Source: Bacteroidaceae bacterium (lineage in GTDB: Bacteria; Bacteroidota; Bacteroidia; Bacteroidales; Bacteroidaceae). Taken from it: 59,205 bases of DNA. The notes under the pieces were generated by a model. It ran no database searches. It was not told the DNA's origin and saw only the letters and a list, made by a program, of their open reading frames with translations. The first letter of the stretch is position 1. Each line of letters starts with the position of its first letter. Position numbers and translations under genes: made by a program. Where the stretch lies: the NCBI GenBank assembly GCA_017617235.1, contig JAFZWQ010000011.1, positions 1 through 59,205 of the forward strand, given 5' to 3'. Positions 288 to 39,953 of this stretch are shown in pieces.

Positions 288-1071
288 CGTCGCAGATAAA
301 CTTCCCTAGTGCCTTGCCCGGATCAGCAGTCTTCATGAAGTTCTCGCCAATCAGGAAACCTCGGAAACCTGCCTGACGGAGTGCCTTGACGGTATCAGGA
401 TTCGAGATGCCGCTTTCGCTGACCTTGACAGCATCCTTGGGCAGAAGTTCTGCCAAACGGAAAGAGTTCTGGACATCAGTTACAAACGACCCCAAGTTGC
501 GGTTGTTGATGCCACACATGTCGGGTTCCAGTTCTGCATATTCCAGTTCGGGTTCACTGTGCATCTCGAGCAACACTTCGAGTCCTAACTCATGCGCACT
601 GTGCAGGAGCGTTTTGCACTCCTGTTTCGACAGGTCGGCGGCAATCAACAGTACGGCACTGGCACCACAGAGACGGGCCTGAAACAGTTGGTACTCGTCG
701 ATGACGAAGTTCTTATATAAGACAGGTATCTGGACGCCAGCATGACGAGCCGTCTTAATGAATTCGTCGCTGCCGCCAAAATACTTCTCGTCGGTTAAGA
801 TACTTAAGGCGGAAGCACCGTTCTGCTGGTAACTTAGTGGTATGATGTCAGCTTGGCCTTCTTCCTTAATCCAGCCTTTCGAGGGCGACTTGCGCTTAAA
901 CTCAGCGATGATGCCGGAGTCAGAAGTCGTCAGGGCATGCGACATCGAGGCTACGCTGAAGTCGAGCAGCGGCTCTACACGACGGTGTATCTCCTGTTCG
1001 CTCAACTCCTGCTTAAAGCGCTCTACCTCCAGCCGCTTGTGGGCAACGATCTCTTGTAGGATATCCTTCAT
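274..1071 (-). CDS. trpC: TrpC, indole-3-glycerol-phosphate synthase
   Basis: The 265-residue length is normal for a monofunctional TrpC. It closes the CdRP ring to indole-3-glycerol phosphate with loss of CO2. Visible signatures, in order: IIAEFKRKSPSKG near residue 55 (catalytic lysine region), LSILTDEKYFGGS, VLYKNFVIDEYQ (second catalytic lysine), VLLIAADL, LGLEVLLEMH, GINNRNL, SESGI and GFLIGENF (phosphate binding). It is a separate gene rather than the TrpC-TrpF fusion of enterobacteria. It lies between trpD and trpF in the same minus-strand operon, and both flanking spacers carry TTTCGATA microrepeats. Confidence 0.97.
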   Translation of the reverse strand: MKDILQEIVAHKRLEVERFKQELSEQEIHRRVEPLLDFSVASMSHALTTSDSGIIAEFKRKSPSKGWIKEEGQADIIPLSYQQNGASALSILTDEKYFGGSDEFIKTARHAGVQIPVLYKNFVIDEYQLFQARLCGASAVLLIAADLSKQECKTLLHSAHELGLEVLLEMHSEPELEYAELEPDMCGINNRNLGSFVTDVQNSFRLAELLPKDAVKVSESGISNPDTVKALRQAGFRGFLIGENFMKTADPGKALGKFICDVISK

Positions 1072-1073
1072 TT

Positions 1074-1103
1074 CTTCGATGTTTCGATATTTCGAGATTT
1101 CGA
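1074..1103. repeat. TTTCGATA-type microrepeat in the trpD-trpC spacer
   Basis: The core TTTCGATATTTCGAGATTTC is the same microrepeat family as in the trpC-trpF spacer. It fills the short gap between trpC (ATG at 1071) and the trpD stop. Confidence 0.6.
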
Positions 1104-2114
1104 CTAACTATTTAACTCGACAAACTTCTTGAAGGTCTTCAGGGCACTGCCGCTGTCAATACTCTCGCGGGCAATAGCGATACACTCCTCAATGGTCTTC
1201 TCGCCCTTCTCGAGTACCTGGATACCGAAGGCGGCGTTGGCCAGCACGATATTTTTCTGGGCAGGCAGGGCGCGATTCTCGAGCACAGAGTCGAAGATGG
1301 CTGCAGCCTCTTCCTCTGTAGCGCCACCGACGAGTTCCTCGGGTTTGGCAATCTCAAAACCAAGATCCTTGGGTGAGAAGATACGCTCGTAGCTCTTGGT
1401 GGTCACTTTGAAGTCGCCTGTCAGCGAAATCTCATCGTAGCCATCGATGGAGTTCACAATACCATAGTCGATGCCGATCTTCTGATACACCTGATGGTAG
1501 AGGCGCATCTGGTCGAGGTTGGCAACGCCCAACAGCTGACACTTAGGCTGACTGGGATTGACCAGCGGACCAAGAAGATTGAAAATCGTAGGGAACTGCA
1601 ATGCCTTACGGATAGGCCCCACAAACTTCATGGCTTTGGCGAAGAGCTGGGCGTGAAGATAGACAATACCTGCCTCGTCGAGCGAGCGGTTCAGACGGTC
1701 GATGTCGTCGGTGAATTTGATGCCGTGGTGCTGGATGACGTTCGATGCTCCTGACACCGAAGTGGCGGCATAGTTGCCGTGCTTGGCCACCTTGTAGCCG
1801 GCTCCGGCGATGACGAAGCAGCTGGTGGTCGAGATGTTAAACGTGTTCTTGCGGTCGCCGCCGGTGCCGACAACGTCGATGTAGCGGTCGGCGTTGAGGA
1901 TGGCGGGCACGCCCGTCTCCAGGATACCGTCGCGGAAGCCGAGCAGCTCGTCGACGGTGACGCCGCGCATCTGCAGAGCCGTCAGCAGGGCGGTAATCTG
2001 CTCCGTGGGGTACTCGCTCTGAGTGATACCAATCAGAATGTTCTTCATTTCTTCACGGGAGAGTTCCTCGTGGTTCAGCATCCTGTTCAGGATGTCTTTC
2101 ATTGTCTGTGCCAT
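1104..2114 (-). CDS. trpD: TrpD, anthranilate phosphoribosyltransferase
   Basis: A 336-residue monofunctional TrpD that joins anthranilate to PRPP. The PRPP-binding signature DVVGTGGDRKNTFNIST is near residue 80, followed by KHGNYAATSVSGASNV; an N-terminal helical region of about 70 residues precedes them. The YLHAQLFAKAMK and LGPLVNP segments are also typical. It lacks the glutaminase domain fused to TrpD in enterobacteria; that function is carried by the separate upstream trpG. The trpG-trpD spacer is unusually long for this operon (258 bases) and is occupied by a 41-bp tandem repeat array. Confidence 0.97.
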   Translation of the reverse strand: MAQTMKDILNRMLNHEELSREEMKNILIGITQSEYPTEQITALLTALQMRGVTVDELLGFRDGILETGVPAILNADRYIDVVGTGGDRKNTFNISTTSCFVIAGAGYKVAKHGNYAATSVSGASNVIQHHGIKFTDDIDRLNRSLDEAGIVYLHAQLFAKAMKFVGPIRKALQFPTIFNLLGPLVNPSQPKCQLLGVANLDQMRLYHQVYQKIGIDYGIVNSIDGYDEISLTGDFKVTTKSYERIFSPKDLGFEIAKPEELVGGATEEEAAAIFDSVLENRALPAQKNIVLANAAFGIQVLEKGEKTIEECIAIARESIDSGSALKTFKKFVELNS

Positions 2115-2152
2115 ATTGCTATTTGTTTTGAATTTGTTACTTTTTGGGTTGT

Positions 2153-2370
2153 CCGAAGTTCGGACGATGCCGGAAGTATCTCGCTGACGTTTCCCGAAGT
2201 TCGGACGATGCCGGAAGTATCTCGCTGACGTTTTCCGAGTTTCGGACGCTGTCGAAAGTGTCTCGCTGACGTTTTCCGAGGTTCGGACGATGTCGGAAAT
2301 GTCTTGCTGACTTTTTCCGAGTTTCGGACGCAGTCGGAAATGTCTCGCTGACGTTTTCCGAGGTTCGGCG
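2153..2370. repeat. 41-bp tandem repeat array between trpG and trpD
   Basis: Unit starts fall at 2153, 2194, 2235, 2276, 2317 and 2358, an exact 41-base period giving about 5.3 copies. Each unit opens with the dyad CCGA(a/g)nTTCGG; the first copy is the perfect palindrome GTCCGAAGTTCGGAC. It ends with a TCTCGCTGACGTTT-like segment. The period is not a multiple of three and no real protein is read. The array begins right after the trpG stop and ends about 38 bases before the trpD start, so it is transcribed within the operon. Confidence 0.95.
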
Positions 2371-2372
2371 AG

Positions 2373-2936
2373 CTACAGAAACAGCCAGTTCTGAATCATG
2401 CGTCGCCCGTCGGGGGTCAGCACGCTCTCGGGATGGAATTGGATGCCCCGGACGTTCAGCTCGCGATGGCGGAGCGCCATGATCTGTCCCTCGTCGCTCT
2501 CGGCGGTGATTTCGAGACAGTCGGGCAGTCCTTCGCGAGAGACCACCCACGAGTGGTAGCGGCCGACGGTAAACTCCTTCGAGATGCCAGAGAAGAGCGC
2601 GTCGTCGCTCGTGAGATGACAGGGCGTCGCCACCCCGTGGAACACGTCGCTCAGGTTCTCGAGCTTACCGCCGAAGGCCTCGCCGATGGCCTGATGGCCC
2701 AGGCAGACGCCCAAGATGGGCTTCTTGCCGGCGTACGTCTTGATGACATCGAGCAGAAGACCTGCCTCGGAAGGAATGCCGGGGCCTGGCGAGAGGATGA
2801 TCTTGCTGAACTCCTCCAGCTGCGACAGTTCGAACTGGTCGTTGCGATAGACGGTGACCTCAGCGCCCAGTTCCTTGACCAAATGACTCAAGTTGTATGT
2901 AAACGAGTCGTAATTATCGATGATGACTATTTTCAT
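2373..2936 (-). CDS. trpG: TrpG, anthranilate synthase glutamine amidotransferase subunit
   Basis: A 187-residue class I glutamine amidotransferase that supplies ammonia to TrpE. It opens with MKIVIIDNYDSFTYNL. The oxyanion motif is LSPGPGIP (about 49-55), the nucleophile is Cys78 in GVCLGHQAIGE, and the His168/Glu170 pair sits in IQFHPES. RYHSWVV is also characteristic. It lies downstream of trpE in the minus-strand operon, as expected for a two-subunit complex. The sequence cannot exclude a shared role in para-aminobenzoate synthesis (PabA function), which some organisms assign to one TrpG. Confidence 0.96.
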   Translation of the reverse strand: MKIVIIDNYDSFTYNLSHLVKELGAEVTVYRNDQFELSQLEEFSKIILSPGPGIPSEAGLLLDVIKTYAGKKPILGVCLGHQAIGEAFGGKLENLSDVFHGVATPCHLTSDDALFSGISKEFTVGRYHSWVVSREGLPDCLEITAESDEGQIMALRHRELNVRGIQFHPESVLTPDGRRMIQNWLFL

Positions 2937-2967
2937 ATTCGTGTAATCCGTTAAATTCGTGGTTAAA
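2937..2967. repeat. ATTCGTGTAATT-type spacer repeat (trpE-trpG)
   Basis: The spacer reads ATTCGTGTAATC, then TTAAATTCGTGGTTAAA. Nearly the same sequence fills the trpB-trpE spacer at 4406-4436, so the same repeat occupies two spacers of one operon. Confidence 0.65.
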
Positions 2968-2972
2968 GAGAA

Positions 2973-4403
2973 TTACATGTCCTCGGCCATGATGATGGCG
3001 CGGCGCAGGGCACCGAGTTTGTTGTTCACTTCCTGCAGTTCGTATTCCTCGTCGCTCTTGGCCACGATGCCGCCGCCGGCCTGGAACCACAGCTCGCCGT
3101 TGCGCGAGACGAAGGTGCGGATGGTGATGGCCTGGTTCAGGCTTCCGTCGAGGCCGATGTAGCCGATGCAGCCACCGTAAGCACCGCGGTTGTGGGGCTC
3201 GTACTCGGAGATGAGCTGCATGGCGCGAACCTTCGGCGCACCAGAGAGCGTGCCGGCCGGGAAGGTGTCGATGAAGGCCTTGATGGGGTCGGCGCCCTCG
3301 TCGAGCTCGCCGGATACGCGGGATACGAGGTGGATGACGTGCGAGTAATACTGCAGGTCCTTGTAGAAGTCGACCTTCACGCCGTGGCAGTTCCTCGAAA
3401 GGTCGTTACGGGCCAGGTCAACCAGCATCACGTGTTCGGCATTCTCCTTTGGATCGTTCCTCAGATATTCTGCTCCCTTGCGGTCGGCCTCCGCATCGCC
3501 CGTACGCTTCGTGGTGCCAGCGATAGGGTCGATGTAGGCGCGGAACTTAGCCCCTGTGCCCGACGGTTTTCCGTCGGGTGTGACGGCCTCAATCCGGCAG
3601 TGCGTCTCGGGGCTGCTTCCGAATATCCTGAACCCGCCGAAGTCGAAGTAGAACAGATAGGGCGAGGGGTTGATGCTGCGCAGGGCGCGATAGAGCTTGA
3701 AGTCGTCGCCCTCGTACTTCTGGACGAAACGGCGGCTGAGCACAATCTGGAACACGTCGCCACGCAGACAGTGCTGGATGCCCTTGCGGATATTGGCTTT
3801 GTGCTCCTCGTCGGTCAGCGGACTCGTCGTCTCGCCCACGGGATGGAAGTCGTAAGCCTTCACGTTGGCCTTGTTCATGGCGCGCATCACGTCGTCGAGC
3901 TTTGCCTCGCCGTCGAGCGACACAATCTTCAGCGTGTTATTAAAGTGGTCGAACACAATCACCACCTTATATAATATATAGAGCAGGTCGGGGGCGTCGT
4001 TCTTCGCCTGCGTCTCGTCCTTCACGTTGATGTCCTCGAAATAGCGCACAGCATTGAAGCTGGTGTAGCCGAAGAGTCCGCAGATCTTGGCGTCGTCGCC
4101 CTCGACATGAATGCGGTCGATGAGTTGGTGGATAGCCTTGTCCGAGCGATACTCCTTGTTCACCTCGTGCTGGAATGTCGTGCCGTCAGGATAGGTGATG
4201 GTAGCCACGCCGTGACCAATCGCCACGCTGGCCATAGGCTCGATGCCGATAAACGAGCGCGAATTGTTAGAGTCGTGATAATCGGAGCTCTCCATCAGCG
4301 CGCTCTGCGGATAGAGGTCGCGCAGTCGCATATACACGCCCACTGGGGTGTACAGATCCGCGAGGATCGTCTTACTGGTTGTCGTATATTTAAAAGTTTC
4401 CAT
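2973..4403 (-). CDS. trpE: TrpE, anthranilate synthase component I
   Basis: A 476-residue chorismate-utilising enzyme that makes anthranilate from chorismate, with ammonia from TrpG. The N-terminal LMESSDYHD segment matches the family's feedback site (LLES in enterobacteria). The C-terminal catalytic domain shows VFQIVLSRRF, YLFYFDF, IFGSSPETHCR, PIAGTTKRTGDAEADRKG, EHVMLVDLARNDLSR, FPAGTLSGAPKVRAMQLI and GAYGGCIGYIG. The last carries the chorismate-binding residues. Retention of the feedback motif suggests tryptophan inhibition in addition to leader attenuation. It lies between trpB and trpG. Confidence 0.97.
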   Translation of the reverse strand: METFKYTTTSKTILADLYTPVGVYMRLRDLYPQSALMESSDYHDSNNSRSFIGIEPMASVAIGHGVATITYPDGTTFQHEVNKEYRSDKAIHQLIDRIHVEGDDAKICGLFGYTSFNAVRYFEDINVKDETQAKNDAPDLLYILYKVVIVFDHFNNTLKIVSLDGEAKLDDVMRAMNKANVKAYDFHPVGETTSPLTDEEHKANIRKGIQHCLRGDVFQIVLSRRFVQKYEGDDFKLYRALRSINPSPYLFYFDFGGFRIFGSSPETHCRIEAVTPDGKPSGTGAKFRAYIDPIAGTTKRTGDAEADRKGAEYLRNDPKENAEHVMLVDLARNDLSRNCHGVKVDFYKDLQYYSHVIHLVSRVSGELDEGADPIKAFIDTFPAGTLSGAPKVRAMQLISEYEPHNRGAYGGCIGYIGLDGSLNQAITIRTFVSRNGELWFQAGGGIVAKSDEEYELQEVNNKLGALRRAIIMAEDM

Positions 4404-32416: not shown

Positions 32417-34231
32417 TTACTTAACCAAAATCTTCTTACCATTTACGATGTTGATGCCCTTCTGCATACGGCTCAGACGACGACCTGTCATATCGAAGAT
32501 GGCTTGAATATCCTCGGCACCAACCTTTTCAACTGTCTCTATACCGGTCTCGCTGTCCACGAACACAAAGGTAAAACCCTTGACACCGCTGCCAGTTCCA
32601 ACTGAACCAACTGGTAGGTAAGCCTTTCCTGCAGGCAATGTGCAAGCACTATTAGAATAGAATTTATCACCCGATAGACCATAGATTTCGTTTGCTGCGA
32701 AGTATTCAGGAGCAGTGGTCCCTTTGAGTAAATTACCTGAAAGTTCAGTAGAGCTGTCGACTGACTTGATATTTACAGTTGTCGATGCAGAACCCTTCAA
32801 CAGGATACCTTGACCACCCTTGATGCTGCCCGTAATTTGCGAGAAGGTGATGACACCCGTGCTGCTGTTAGCTTCTGTAACCTGCCAAGCTGTGAATCCT
32901 TTATCTTCAGCATTAGCCTTCGAGAAATCGAGAGGATACTGAGAGCAGAAAGTTGCATAGCCGCTATCATTCAACTTGGCCTTAATGAGTTCACCCTTAC
33001 TTACCACCACTTCATCAAGGAAGAAACGTGAATTACTTTTGTTCTTTCCTGCAAAAGTCAACTTGGTATCAGCGGTTGCTCCCTTAATTGCAACTGCATA
33101 ATTGTTAAATTCACCTTTTGTCATAGATACTGATGACTCACTGAGAGTACCACCTCCTGTTACAGATAGGATTAAGTCCGTCTGTTCTGACGAACCATCC
33201 CAAGCAGCAGCTTTGAATTCCACAATCATATTACCGGCTTGTCCAAAAGCAGGTGTAGTAGCTGATCCTTTAGTACTACTTGCGCCCAGTTTTATACATT
33301 TATTTGCACCTCCTTGAGATGTATAAGACCAACCCGTTTGGTCAGAAGTGACAGAAGCAAATGTAAGTGATCCGCTCCATTTTCCATCGTTACCACCTTC
33401 GCCATTTGTTTTATCCCAAGTCTCTGACCAAACTTTCACAGGAGCGGCTGGAGCCGTTGTTCCACCTGCAGGAGCAGTTACGGTCAGCGTGTATGTTTCG
33501 TTCGTTGCAGCTTTGTAGTCTCCGTTTGCAGGGGCACTAATTGTGATAGTAGCTGTACCTACAGCCTTCGGAGTGAAGGTGATTGTCTTAGGAGAAGTAC
33601 TTATAGAAACAGTTGCTATATCGGGAACAACAGTTGCACTCATGGTGCCAGTATAACCATCAGTAAGTGAATGCCCAACAGATATCGGAGTGCCGTATGT
33701 CGTTGAGCCGCTGGTGGATGCGAGGCCTATTGAAGTATCTATGGTTGGGTCACCGCCACTAGGAATGCCTGTTACAGAATAATTGCGTAAACGAATTCCT
33801 TTCCCGGTTGGAGCATATAACTGAATTTTAAAATTAACGCTAATATCACCTAAAGAAATAGGAGAGTCTGTGCTAATATAAGAATTTGAAGTTGGAGTTG
33901 CAGTGGTTTTCTCTACAATAACTGCATTTGTGGATGCATTGAGAATCCGAATTGTCAAAGGGTGATTTGTTCCACTTCCAAAAGTTGCCACTGTATATGT
34001 AAAAGACAACGATGTGTGAGGGCCAAACGATGACGAAGTCATAGTACCATTGTCAAATTTCAAATACGAACCGCCATCAACAGTTCCAGATGTAGTCCAT
34101 CCTGTTGGAACAGTATAATCACTTGTGCCAGACCCAGAAACTAAGGTCACAGGATCCGTTGCCCATGCGGAGGTTACCCCGGCTATCATGCAGCATAGCA
34201 GGAGGAGGGTTTTTAATAAAAGTTTTTTCAT
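32417..34231 (-). CDS. Secreted multidomain protein with Ig-like region and C-terminal sorting-type tail
   Basis: 604 residues. Signal peptide ending VTSAWA. The N-terminal domain (30-155) is a beta-sandwich. An Ig-like (BIG/MBG-type) repeat is near 165-255 (ASTSGSTTYGTPISVGHSL, VGTATITISAPANGDYKAAT). A carbohydrate-binding or cleaved-adhesin-like sandwich is near 265-420 (VWSETWDKTNGEGGNDGKWS..FFLDEVVVSKG), then a domain with GYATFCSQYPLDFS. It ends IFDMTGRRLSRMQKGINIVNG plus KKILVK. No catalytic motif is seen; a surface or periplasmic binding role is inferred. It is preceded by a long structured leader RNA and followed by the small peptide gene. Confidence 0.82.
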   Translation of the reverse strand: MKKLLLKTLLLLCCMIAGVTSAWATDPVTLVSGSGTSDYTVPTGWTTSGTVDGGSYLKFDNGTMTSSSFGPHTSLSFTYTVATFGSGTNHPLTIRILNASTNAVIVEKTTATPTSNSYISTDSPISLGDISVNFKIQLYAPTGKGIRLRNYSVTGIPSGGDPTIDTSIGLASTSGSTTYGTPISVGHSLTDGYTGTMSATVVPDIATVSISTSPKTITFTPKAVGTATITISAPANGDYKAATNETYTLTVTAPAGGTTAPAAPVKVWSETWDKTNGEGGNDGKWSGSLTFASVTSDQTGWSYTSQGGANKCIKLGASSTKGSATTPAFGQAGNMIVEFKAAAWDGSSEQTDLILSVTGGGTLSESSVSMTKGEFNNYAVAIKGATADTKLTFAGKNKSNSRFFLDEVVVSKGELIKAKLNDSGYATFCSQYPLDFSKANAEDKGFTAWQVTEANSSTGVITFSQITGSIKGGQGILLKGSASTTVNIKSVDSSTELSGNLLKGTTAPEYFAANEIYGLSGDKFYSNSACTLPAGKAYLPVGSVGTGSGVKGFTFVFVDSETGIETVEKVGAEDIQAIFDMTGRRLSRMQKGINIVNGKKILVK

Positions 34232-34289
34232 GTCTTTTTATTTTTAGGTTTATAATCAGTTTCTCAATTCGCGAGTCTGTACAAACCCT

Positions 34290-34482
34290 TAAATAAAAAG
34301 AATGTGCGCAGACCCAACATCTCCCGTCCAGGTCTTGCACAACCTATACCATCGATTGCTGAAGCCTGCGCACAAGGCGCATAGCTCCAATGATGGTATT
34401 TTAGCTCATATTTCCTTTCTGAGGTGCAAGTTCGGACGGGAATTGAGCAAATAAAATGTGTACTTCCGCCGAAGTACGCTGA
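34290..34482 (-). ncRNA. Structured leader or small RNA with a rod-like fold and a competing pre-U-tract stem
   Basis: Downstream of a consensus promoter the minus-strand transcript begins with the hairpin TACTTC-GGCG-GAAGTA (34461-34476). A long rod follows: 34434-34440 with 34323-34329 (7 bp), 34424-34430 with 34334-34340 (7 bp), 34388-34398 with 34347-34358 (11 bp, one bulge), 34384-34387 with 34361-34365, and 34377-34381 with 34367-34371 (apical). An exclusive alternative pairs 34366-34374 with 34303-34311 (9 bp), directly before TTCTTTTTATTT, like a terminator. It may be an attenuating leader of the secreted-protein gene or a separate 6S-like small RNA of about 190 bases. I recognise no known family. 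Confidence 0.62.
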
Positions 34483-34514
34483 CAAAGATACGATTAAGCG
34501 AACGAATACGCAAA
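34483..34514 (-). promoter_or_regulatory. Promoter of the structured RNA / secreted-protein cassette
   Basis: TTTG (34511-34514), 20 bases, TATCTTTG (34483-34490) on the minus strand, about 250 bases before the secreted protein's ATG; this implies a long leader. Confidence 0.82.
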
Positions 34515-34650
34515 TTTATTTGCAGTTTTCTGAGCGTGAGTATCTAAAAACGTCGTTTAAAGGTACGAAGAAGTGAGAACAAAACAAAATAAAAAAAGGA
34601 AAAATGTTGAAAAAGGGATAAGTGTTTACATGGACACAAAAAACCTGCAC

Positions 34651-34953
34651 CTAGAGGATGCTCTTTGTCATCGGGCGGCGAACAAACCAGATGCTATGCA
34701 GATGATCAGGCATCAGGCTGTATTGCAAGACCTGTATTTCAGGGTGAAAAATGGGTAGTGAACGCTGACAATCCAGCAATGCTTGCCCCAACTCCGTGCG
34801 TTCCACCCACGCCTGAGCAGGATTGTTGTTGGGGATGACTAGCTTACCCAACAAAGCCTCTCTCGAGGGAATCGTCAGCGTCACATGATAGATACCAACA
34901 CCTCTCCATGACGTGCCCTCTTCCTGCCATTGCCATCTCGCATACTCCGTCAT
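34651..34953 (-). pseudogene. REP-associated tyrosine transposase (Y1_Tnp), N-terminal fragment
   Basis: 100 codons resembling the start of a Bacteroidota Y1/REP transposase: RWQWQEEGTSWRGVGIYHVTLTIPSRE, LGQALLD, and the HUH motif in YSLMPDHLHSIWFVRRPM. The frame then stops after TKSIL. The family is usually 200-300 residues and needs the catalytic tyrosine on a helix after the HUH motif, which is missing. It is therefore a truncated remnant. It marks the left side of the mobile-looking region 34.6-39.9 kb. Confidence 0.75.
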
Positions 34954-35432: not shown

Positions 35433-36548
35433 ATGACCAATCAATTGATTTTGAACGGAGAGGCAATGAATGCCTCCCAAGAGGGACTGCTCGAAGCAGA
35501 GTCGTTCCTGAGTGAGAATTATCTTTTCCGTCGCAACGTGCTGAACGGGAAAATCGAGTTTGCAACCAAAGAGGAAGGCGAGGAGGAACCGCAGTTCCGA
35601 ACGCTGACGCAGCAGGCGCTGAACAGTATCGTGCTGAGGGCCAAGCGCGAGAACATCTGCGAGGGTTCCAATCCGAAGTCGGACATCCAGGAGTACATCA
35701 ACTCCGAGGAGGTTCCCACCTTCAGTCCCATCAGGGATTTCCTGGACAACCTGCCCGCTTGGAACGGACACAACCACGTGGCTGCCCTGTTCAACCGCAT
35801 TCCTGGAGTCACCAGCGAACAGTTGTCGTACCTCTGCATCTGGTTCCGTTCCGCCGTTGCCCACTGGGAACAGATGGACGTGCTGCACGGCAACGAGTGC
35901 GTGCCCACCCTGATTGGTTCGCAGGGTTGTGGAAAGACGACGTTCATCCGACGTATGCTTCCCCCACACCTGCGTCCCTACTATCTGGATCACCTGAACC
36001 TTTCGAACAAGTTCGACAAGGAGATGGCGCTGACGAACAACCTGCTGGTGAACCTCGATGAGCTGGACGCCATCCGTCCCAGCCAGCATGCTGCCCTGAA
36101 GCAGACGCTGTCGAAGAGCAAGGTGAACGGGCGCCCCATCTACGGAGCCTCGCAGGAGGATCGTGCGCGCTACGCCTCGTTCGTGGCAACGACGAACAAC
36201 CAGCACCCCCTGACGGATGCAACGGGCAGCCGTCGCTATATCTGCATCCGGATTCCAGACGGGCAGTATATAGATAATGTAGGGGACATCGACTACGGAC
36301 AGCTCTATGCCCAGGTGATGTACGAGCTGCACGAGCAGGAGGCACCCTACTGGTTCAACAATCAGGAGGTGGCCCGCATCCAGCAGCTGAACATCGAGTT
36401 CACGCAGAAGAAGGACATTTCCGAGATGATTCCCACCTGCTTCCGCAAGCCCAAGGAAGGGGAAGCGGCAACGACGATGAACAGCCAGCAGATGCTGGAG
36501 GTGATACAGTCGAAGTACCCCAGCCTCCAGATACTCTGTAAAGTCTAA
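35433..36548 (+). CDS. VapE-like (virulence-associated E) P-loop helicase/primase-type protein, C-terminally disrupted
   Basis: 371 codons. The N-terminal part has SENYLFRRNVLNGKIEFAT. The family core shows PIRDFLDNLPAWNGHNHVAALF, P-loop LIGSQGCGKTTFIRRMLP (162-170), Walker B LLVNLDELDAI, LKQTLSKSKVNGRPIYG, and RYASFVATTNNQHPLTDATG SRRYICI. These are SF3-like proteins of prophages, plasmids and integrative elements. The family's C-terminal winged-helix is cut: the frame ends at KYPSLQILCKV, at a junction with the start of a reverse-strand PLD-like gene. It may be a remnant, but the ATPase core is intact. Confidence 0.85.
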   Translation: MTNQLILNGEAMNASQEGLLEAESFLSENYLFRRNVLNGKIEFATKEEGEEEPQFRTLTQQALNSIVLRAKRENICEGSNPKSDIQEYINSEEVPTFSPIRDFLDNLPAWNGHNHVAALFNRIPGVTSEQLSYLCIWFRSAVAHWEQMDVLHGNECVPTLIGSQGCGKTTFIRRMLPPHLRPYYLDHLNLSNKFDKEMALTNNLLVNLDELDAIRPSQHAALKQTLSKSKVNGRPIYGASQEDRARYASFVATTNNQHPLTDATGSRRYICIRIPDGQYIDNVGDIDYGQLYAQVMYELHEQEAPYWFNNQEVARIQQLNIEFTQKKDISEMIPTCFRKPKEGEAATTMNSQQMLEVIQSKYPSLQILCKV

Positions 36549-39714: not shown

Positions 39715-39866
39715 GCAACCAGAGATGATTACTGAGGGGATTGCGCAATGCGCTACCTTTCTTTATTTAAGTATAACCCAACCTCAAACAAGTTTGGCTC
39801 GGGCCATACTTAAATAAAGAGGACACCCCTTTTCGGATGTCCCCTTCAGTAACCATCTCTGGTTGC
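39715..39866. repeat. Nested inverted repeats abutting the tRNA-Ser 3' end
   Basis: The outer arms 39715-39739 and 39841-39866 are near-perfect inverse copies (GCAACCAGAGATG.. against ..CATCTCTGGTTGC). Inside lies a perfect 14-bp inverted repeat, CTTTATTTAAGTAT (39761-39774) and ATACTTAAATAAAG (39806-39819). The right outer arm touches the last base of the tRNA gene. Confidence 0.85.
39821..39843 (-). terminator. Probable tRNA-Ser terminator
   Basis: On the minus strand GGACATCC-GAAAAG-GGGTGTCC forms an 8-bp stem (one G-U pair) followed by TCTTTATTT, 23 bases after the tRNA 3' end. Confidence 0.75.
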
Positions 39867-39953
39867 GGAGAGACTGGGATTCGAACCCAGGGTACAGTCG
39901 CCCGTACGCCGCATTTCGAGTGCGGTCCATTCGACCACTCTGGCATCTCTCCG
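39866..39953 (-). tRNA. tRNA-Ser (anticodon CGA)
   Basis: 88 bases. The acceptor stem CGGAGAG/CTCTCCG, anticodon stem CCGCA/TGCGG with loop CTCGAAA (anticodon CGA, reading UCG), long variable arm (GCGTACGGGCGACTGTACC) and T-arm GGGTTCGAATCCC define a class II tRNA-Ser. No CCA is encoded. It is divergent from rfbA and bounds the mobile-looking region, a usual integration-prone location. Confidence 0.96.

Follow-up and report, generated by a model that had tools for sequence, protein, structure and literature searches.

The minus strand of a 59,205-nucleotide stretch of DNA from a Bacteroidaceae bacterium (contig JAFZWQ010000011.1 of assembly GCA_017617235.1; hereafter the window) carries a leader RNA of about 190 bases, located between a promoter and the gene of an exported protein. 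Two mutually exclusive helices that have one strand in common are both conserved among relatives of this RNA. Judged from its sequence and from comparison with these relatives, the RNA is probably a cis-acting transcription attenuator, representing a riboswitch-like leader class that has no match in Rfam 15. To our knowledge, few such gene-control leaders are known in Bacteroidota.

An earlier, sequence-only reading of the locus had proposed a promoter-driven, structured leader of about 250 bases, and this is borne out by the distance from the promoter to the ATG at 34231 on the minus strand (Table 1). The promoter is of the Bacteroidota type. The strand was not decided by folding alone, because the opposite, plus strand is predicted to fold just as well (z -4.9): the minus strand was chosen on account of the promoter, the U tract, the direction of the gene and the G-U pairs found in relatives.

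Table 1. Features of the leader RNA and its downstream gene in the window.
Feature	Position	Strand	Basis
Promoter: TTTG (34514-34511), 20 nt, TATCTTTG (34490-34483)	34483-34514	-	sequence
P0, 5′ hairpin GTACTTC-GGCG-GAAGTAC	34460-34477	-	predicted fold and sequence
Conserved UUUAUUU-GCUC; GCUC pairable with GAGC 34404-34407	34445-34455	-	alignment
P1 5′ strand CCCGTCC, partner 34323-34329	34434-34440	-	covariation
P2 5′ strand CTTGCAC, partner GTGCAAG 34334-34340	34424-34430	-	covariation
P4 5′ strand, partner 34347-34353	34392-34397	-	covariation
Strand A GCTATGCGC, putative antiterminator 5′ strand	34377-34385	-	covariation
Strand B with extension, shared strand, partner A or C	34354-34374	-	sequence and alignments
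P4 3′ strand	34347-34353	-	covariation
GGT...ACC mini-hairpin (34342-34344 with 34331-34333)	34331-34344	-	near and distant alignments
P1 3′ strand GGACGGG	34323-34329	-	covariation
Strand C with extension, putative terminator 3′ strand	34303-34322	-	covariation
U-rich tract TTCTTTTTATTT directly after strand C	34291-34302	-	sequence
Second hairpin before start codon, GGTTTGTA...TATAAACC, placed by eye	34247-34287	-	weak
604-aa exported protein with T9SS-nuclease-like region	32417-34231	-	NF052644 match

The first of the two folds is a nearly continuous rod, as the same reading had anticipated. It consists of helices P1, P2 and P4 and an apical hairpin in which strand A pairs with strand B (A:B), all strands lying within 34440-34323, and energy minimisation predicts it as the most stable fold (-68.3 kcal/mol, z -4.3), with none of 200 shuffled sequences folding as well. 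In the second fold strand B pairs with strand C instead (B:C). The 9-bp stem claimed earlier is present in the sequence exactly as described: TGTGCGCAG (34374-34366) pairs with CTGCGCACA (34311-34303), followed by the U-rich tract, and bases 34366-34374 are shared with the rod. By eye, this helix extends past 9 bp through CAGCA/TGTTG. The B:C duplex of the window is predicted at -22.8 kcal/mol and the local A..B hairpin at -16.0 kcal/mol, loop cost excluded. Further along the RNA, the 3′ strand of P2 sits in the loop of the GGT...ACC mini-hairpin. The second hairpin before the start codon is a weaker feature: in 89 of 128 relatives the stretch from RNA to ATG pairs better than shuffled sequences do on average, and RNAalifold gave no consensus fold between the RNA and the ATG.

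A DNA search retrieved a 58-bp promoter block recurring in the genus together with true homologues of the RNA. Fifteen homologues form a first alignment (A1), from which a sixteenth, L018, was omitted as it diverges in its 3′ half. Two covariance models were used: R1 comprises only the P1, P2, P4 and apical A:B pairs, and R2 was built from 99 matches (100 sources were given, and L092 had none). The B:C pairing is part of no covariance model. With R1 the leader RNA was found in 70 of 121 genomes of the genus, at one to eight copies each, and in 18 of 295 sampled from the order. Within the order R2 matched genomes of 48 of 207 genera and, by count of the listing, 42 families (71 of 393 genomes); at class level it matched 9 of 295 genomes and at phylum level 9 of 395. 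Each of these R2 figures includes the own genome. All the genome counts are lower bounds, because stricter filters apply once a search covers more than 40 genomes. A DNA pattern scan of named genomes yielded at least 119 stretches. The 80 pattern matches listed come nearly all from uncultured Prevotella, Prevotellaceae, Bacteroidaceae or Bacteroidales, many of them from rumen or gut. Among the matches listed there is one clear outsider, Rhodopirellula (L227), which was rejected: it has the DNA pattern only and failed the covariance model.

Conservation was assessed on two larger collections. The near set (A2) holds 99 rows, 98 of them distinct; by count, the genus contributes 84 of the rows and other families 15. 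The distant set holds 77 rows, obtained from 82 by removal of five near relatives; median pairwise identity over all 82 rows is 45%. The locus lists contain some near-duplicates from two collections, and identical rows were counted once in the pair counts for rod and alternative on A2 and in the 82-row counts, and not in the other counts.

A helix scan of A1 without preset structure ranked P1 first, B:C second and P2 third. On A2, which was fitted to a model already holding most rod pairs, 95.6% of 2580 rod cells are paired, and 25 of 27 pairs show double-sided changes, which amount to 800 cells, compared with 247 after shuffling. The number of rod pair types does not go beyond shuffles, 70 of 500 of which reach the same number. 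The alternative fold was scored as B:C, CCAUA:UAUGG, GGY:RCC and GCUC:GAGC, a set held by no model: 96.9% of 1852 cells are paired (shuffled 93.5), with double-sided changes at 10 of 19 pairs and in 75 cells, against 5.3 and 21 when shuffled. Slid versions of the alternative leave 19-50% of cells paired; a slide by -1 gives as many double-change pairs (10) and fewer cells (44 versus 75).

Taken helix by helix, P1 and P2 are paired in 99.6% and 99.7% of near-set cells and P4 in 89.8%, each with double-sided changes in seven of seven pairs. The A:B core is paired in 98.6% of the near set and 98.8% of the distant set, and B:C in 96.8% of near-set cells, with double-sided changes in five of seven pairs. 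One pair of the GGT...ACC mini-hairpin is standard (C-G, U-A or U-G) in all 98 distinct near rows; the other two have no double-sided change, one of them failing in 13 of the 98 rows, and the mini-hairpin reaches 92% in the distant set. GCUC:GAGC is paired in 99% of near-set cells and is absent from L091 and L094; it constitutes weak evidence, as it is devoid of double-sided changes. An all-against-all covariation score places P1, P2 and P4 on top, followed at lower values, well above the spread, by GGY:RCC, A:B, B:C and CCAUA:UAUGG.

The distant set displays the same duality, as one column of strand B covaries with its partners in both A and C (columns 119-149 and 149-257). The best duplex of strand C with the 73-base middle stretch has z < -2 in 72 of 77 rows, the exceptions being L348, L355, L354, L372 and L310. 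Over the 82 rows, whose alignment was fitted to the model holding these helices, the fraction of paired cells is 98.8-98.9% for P1, P2 and A:B, and 76.4 and 78.7% for the halves of P4. The sequence-only reading had seen an attenuator architecture in the competing folds and had named covariance analysis of homologous leaders as a check: covariation was found for both folds, and it keeps both among the relatives.

The energies bear on how the two folds may relate to each other. In each of the 99 near rows the B:C duplex outscores the local A..B hairpin (means of -21.9 and -13.5 kcal/mol, loop cost excluded). When nested folds are compared, the rod has a mean of -56.3 versus -41.1 for the terminator fold and is better in 93 of 99 rows. 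Since the rod is the more stable nested fold, formation of B:C would have to rely on kinetics or timing, on a bound factor, or on a pseudoknot preserving P1, P2 and P4. The last of these raises the prospect that B:C and CCAUA:UAUGG form, as a pseudoknot with P1, P2 and P4, a compact receptor-like fold in which A is only released and termination is not switched. Among the rod helices B:C overlaps A:B alone, and GGY:RCC flanks the 3′ strand of P2 and could form a kissing-type core, both of which suit such a receptor; the U tract immediately after C and the conservation of A:B as well speak against it, and we regard it as improbable.

The strong stem and U tract expected of an attenuator are both present, although the tracts of the near set are short. 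In A2, U occupies the first four positions right after strand C in 91, 88, 93 and 83 of 99 rows, with 25% further downstream; the near-set tracts often read UUUUCUU, and distant members, inspected by eye, mostly have six or seven U after C.

Promoters are found before the RNA. Of 173 loci, 138 have the motif TAnnTTTG 30-52 nt ahead of the model start, versus 4 of 173 in a control stretch, and 61 of 76 distant loci have it 20-110 nt ahead; 126 of 139 near leaders have an exact promoter upstream of the RNA. In the interval from RNA to ATG, exact promoters number 9 in 139 near leaders (shuffled 5) and 1 in 53 distant ones (shuffled 0), and five-of-six matches 67 versus 65 shuffled in the near and 19 versus 23 in the distant leaders. 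As the promoter precedes the RNA and none is enriched between RNA and ATG, the downstream gene seems to depend on the promoter of the leader, and this position implies that it is probably reached by read-through of B:C and the U tract. In 149 of 173 loci the RNA is followed, 20-150 nt on, by an ATG frame of at least 80 codons; the median distance is 70 nt. On the 5′ side, 116 of 173 loci have a stem of at least 6 bp, corresponding to P0, within the 40 nt that precede the model, versus 56 of 173 when shuffled.

These observations also weigh upon the main rival as regards the role of the RNA, namely that it is a trans-acting small RNA whose gene lies by chance before another gene, B:C being merely its terminator. 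An own promoter, a 5′ hairpin and a terminator-like end all fit such a transcript. The recurrent downstream frame, with no promoter enriched in between, does not; a plain terminator, moreover, would not need conservation of A:B, and a single genome may carry up to eight copies before different genes. An independent small RNA is accordingly judged quite unlikely.

The promoter block itself (34483-34560, minus strand) is a repeated element, by eye partly palindromic, which has 34 matches in its own genome at E 0.01 or better, itself included; in some relatives tandem copies of it, about 75 bp apart, precede other genes. The piece of the query that matched many times was this block (query 1-58) and not the RNA, which disposes of the RNA as a repeated DNA element. 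Beside the block, an ORF at 34651-34953 (minus strand) bears a weak likeness to REP-associated tyrosine transposases (NF047646, E 0.0044, 16.9 bits against a cut-off of 80; no Pfam match) and is perhaps a transposase remnant. The window also encodes a VapE-like domain protein (PF05272) at 35433-36548 on the plus strand; VapE-like proteins are typical of mobile elements.

In principle the structure might act as DNA, as an attC-like or REP-like site for recombination or transposition of a gene cassette. The many unrelated genes that follow the RNA and the possible transposase remnant adjoining the window copy would agree with this. The promoter, the U tract and the G-U pairs on one strand are features of the RNA level, however, the window RNA had no blastn match in a plasmid collection, and the exact pattern had none in viral contigs; a DNA site is thus highly improbable.

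The gene behind the window copy encodes a 604-aa protein whose residues 265-419 match NF052644 (E 1.9e-44, 151.9 bits), short of the curated cut-off of 260; this region resembles a T9SS-dependent surface endonuclease, and the protein matched no Pfam family at 0.001. Exported-looking proteins are frequent after the leader: a crude test found them in 125 of 149 downstream frames versus 83 of 320 other long frames of the same loci, a comparison group that may include frames that are not genes. Of 71 downstream proteins in the distant set, 54 look exported, the median distance being 57 nt. Pfam searches on 146 and on 58 downstream proteins returned many unrelated families, including BspA-type leucine-rich repeats, bacterial Ig-like, lipocalin-like and T9SS sorting domains and many single cases, with no shared pathway and no hint of a ligand.

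Anti-phage genes appear behind leaders of other families, as individual cases for which no enrichment is claimed. The leader of L339/L376 precedes a ZorA gene (PADLOC, E 3e-149), followed by MotB/OmpA-like and HNH-type proteins, as in Zorya, the last two being named by eye; the Zorya-like operon occupies 439-3590 (plus strand) of L376, directly behind the leader copy. Elsewhere in the distant set, the gene after the leader encodes a type IIG enzyme in L335 and helicase or restriction-like proteins in L343 and L361, and gives a weaker methyltransferase match in L321; in L103, a near-set member of another family, the leader stands before an EcoRI-type methylase. Four of ten proteins submitted to the defence-gene check had no match.

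A leader-peptide attenuator was considered and rejected, as no short frame is conserved. An AUG stands at one column (A2 180-182, in the extension of strand C) in 88 of 99 near leaders, opening frames that vary in length and phase, and some ATG frame of at least eight codons is present in 49 of 99. Base pairing alone may explain the conserved AUG, although its place inside strand C may leave room for some role of translation.

The RNA has no counterpart among the families of Rfam 15 by model search. The sequence-only reading had recognised none, and the search gave no credible match: at gathering scores the RNA in the whole window is unmatched, the sole match being a tRNA gene at 39866-39952 (minus strand), and a 501-base stretch searched with E up to 10 returned just four chance-level matches, far below gathering. 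The RNA was equally unmatched in 20 loci (19 relatives and the copy of the window; E up to 0.05) and in a set of 12 (E up to 0.1) that added nine new ones, which amounts to 28 further loci at a limit of 0.05 or 0.1. Elsewhere in the scanned loci known families occur, among them two cobalamin riboswitches. At L095 a DUF805 RNA (RF03081; 1389-1457, minus strand) lies 43 nt downstream of a distant leader copy and before the gene, a possible instance of tandem leaders.

Two structured RNAs were tried as candidates and rejected. The model of Bacteroidales-1 (RF01693), also a structured Bacteroidales RNA of similar length (179 model positions), matches two other places of the genome and not the window locus, and is a separate RNA. 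These matches, one strong and one partial, fall at C49:85989-86131 and C31:42661-42742; being at contig ends and sharing sequence, they perhaps derive from one locus split by the assembly. 6S RNA and 6S-Flavo (RF01685) fold as long rods, and the leader shares that shape; unlike 6S, it stands before genes and has a conserved terminator-like alternative, and neither the window nor the 28 further loci matched the 6S covariance models. The earlier suggestion of a 6S-like RNA is therefore unsupported, given the lack of a match and the set distance of the RNA before a gene apparently devoid of its own promoter. No description of the leader was recognised among the papers listed, including the portions searched of PMC6414381, PMC9723704, PMC11109978 and PMC2864571. 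It was not recognised in PMC8040213 either, though that paper could conceivably contain it as an unnamed motif; in PMC8632094 the search terms for the leader found no match.

Both pairings, their conservation, the U tract and the positions of promoter and gene were computed; we infer that B:C terminates and A:B antiterminates transcription in the cell. In the mechanism proposed, transcription would begin beside P0, and in the nascent RNA P1, P2 and P4 would form around the apical hairpin A:B. The emerging strand C would then displace A and pair with B, creating a helix of about 12-20 bp right before the U tract: together these would act as an intrinsic terminator, at which polymerase would stop and an RNA of about 190 bases would be freed. 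Were A:B held, polymerase would continue into the gene about 70 bases downstream. The balance might be tipped by a small signalling molecule or a protein read at the P1/P2/GGY:RCC core, a guess made because the downstream genes share no pathway.

The strongest rival concerning this trigger is protein-controlled antitermination, whereby an RNA-binding or NusG-like protein on the conserved core lets polymerase pass the terminator. It lies within the attenuator explanation, with which its probability overlaps, and the unrelated downstream families fit a global factor. Specialised NusG paralogues serve Bacteroides capsule operons. Control of this kind is conceivable, if on balance somewhat unlikely. 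More speculative still, and doubtful, is a class-wide Bacteroidota RNA sensor of one internal signal that would attenuate changing surface lipoproteins, BspA-type proteins and anti-phage systems (Zorya, restriction-modification); the signal might be a second messenger of the nucleotide type, or might report phage attack or envelope stress.

The leader resembles transcription-attenuating riboswitches and attenuators in having an apparent terminator and antiterminator with a common strand before a gene, and differs from usual attenuators in that one class precedes many unrelated gene families. In this respect it recalls second-messenger riboswitches: the c-di-GMP classes precede many diverse, often surface-protein, genes. 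Unlike those classes, it has no Rfam match over the RNA.

As an attenuator, this leader would add to Bacteroidota, a major gut phylum, a widespread gene-control RNA class that was found neither in Rfam 15 nor in the literature searched. The conserved core and the clear A, B and C strands make the mechanism directly testable. The downstream pool of exported proteins, lipoproteins, secretion cargo and some anti-phage defence suggests a signal shared in the way these bacteria deal with hosts, neighbours and phages.
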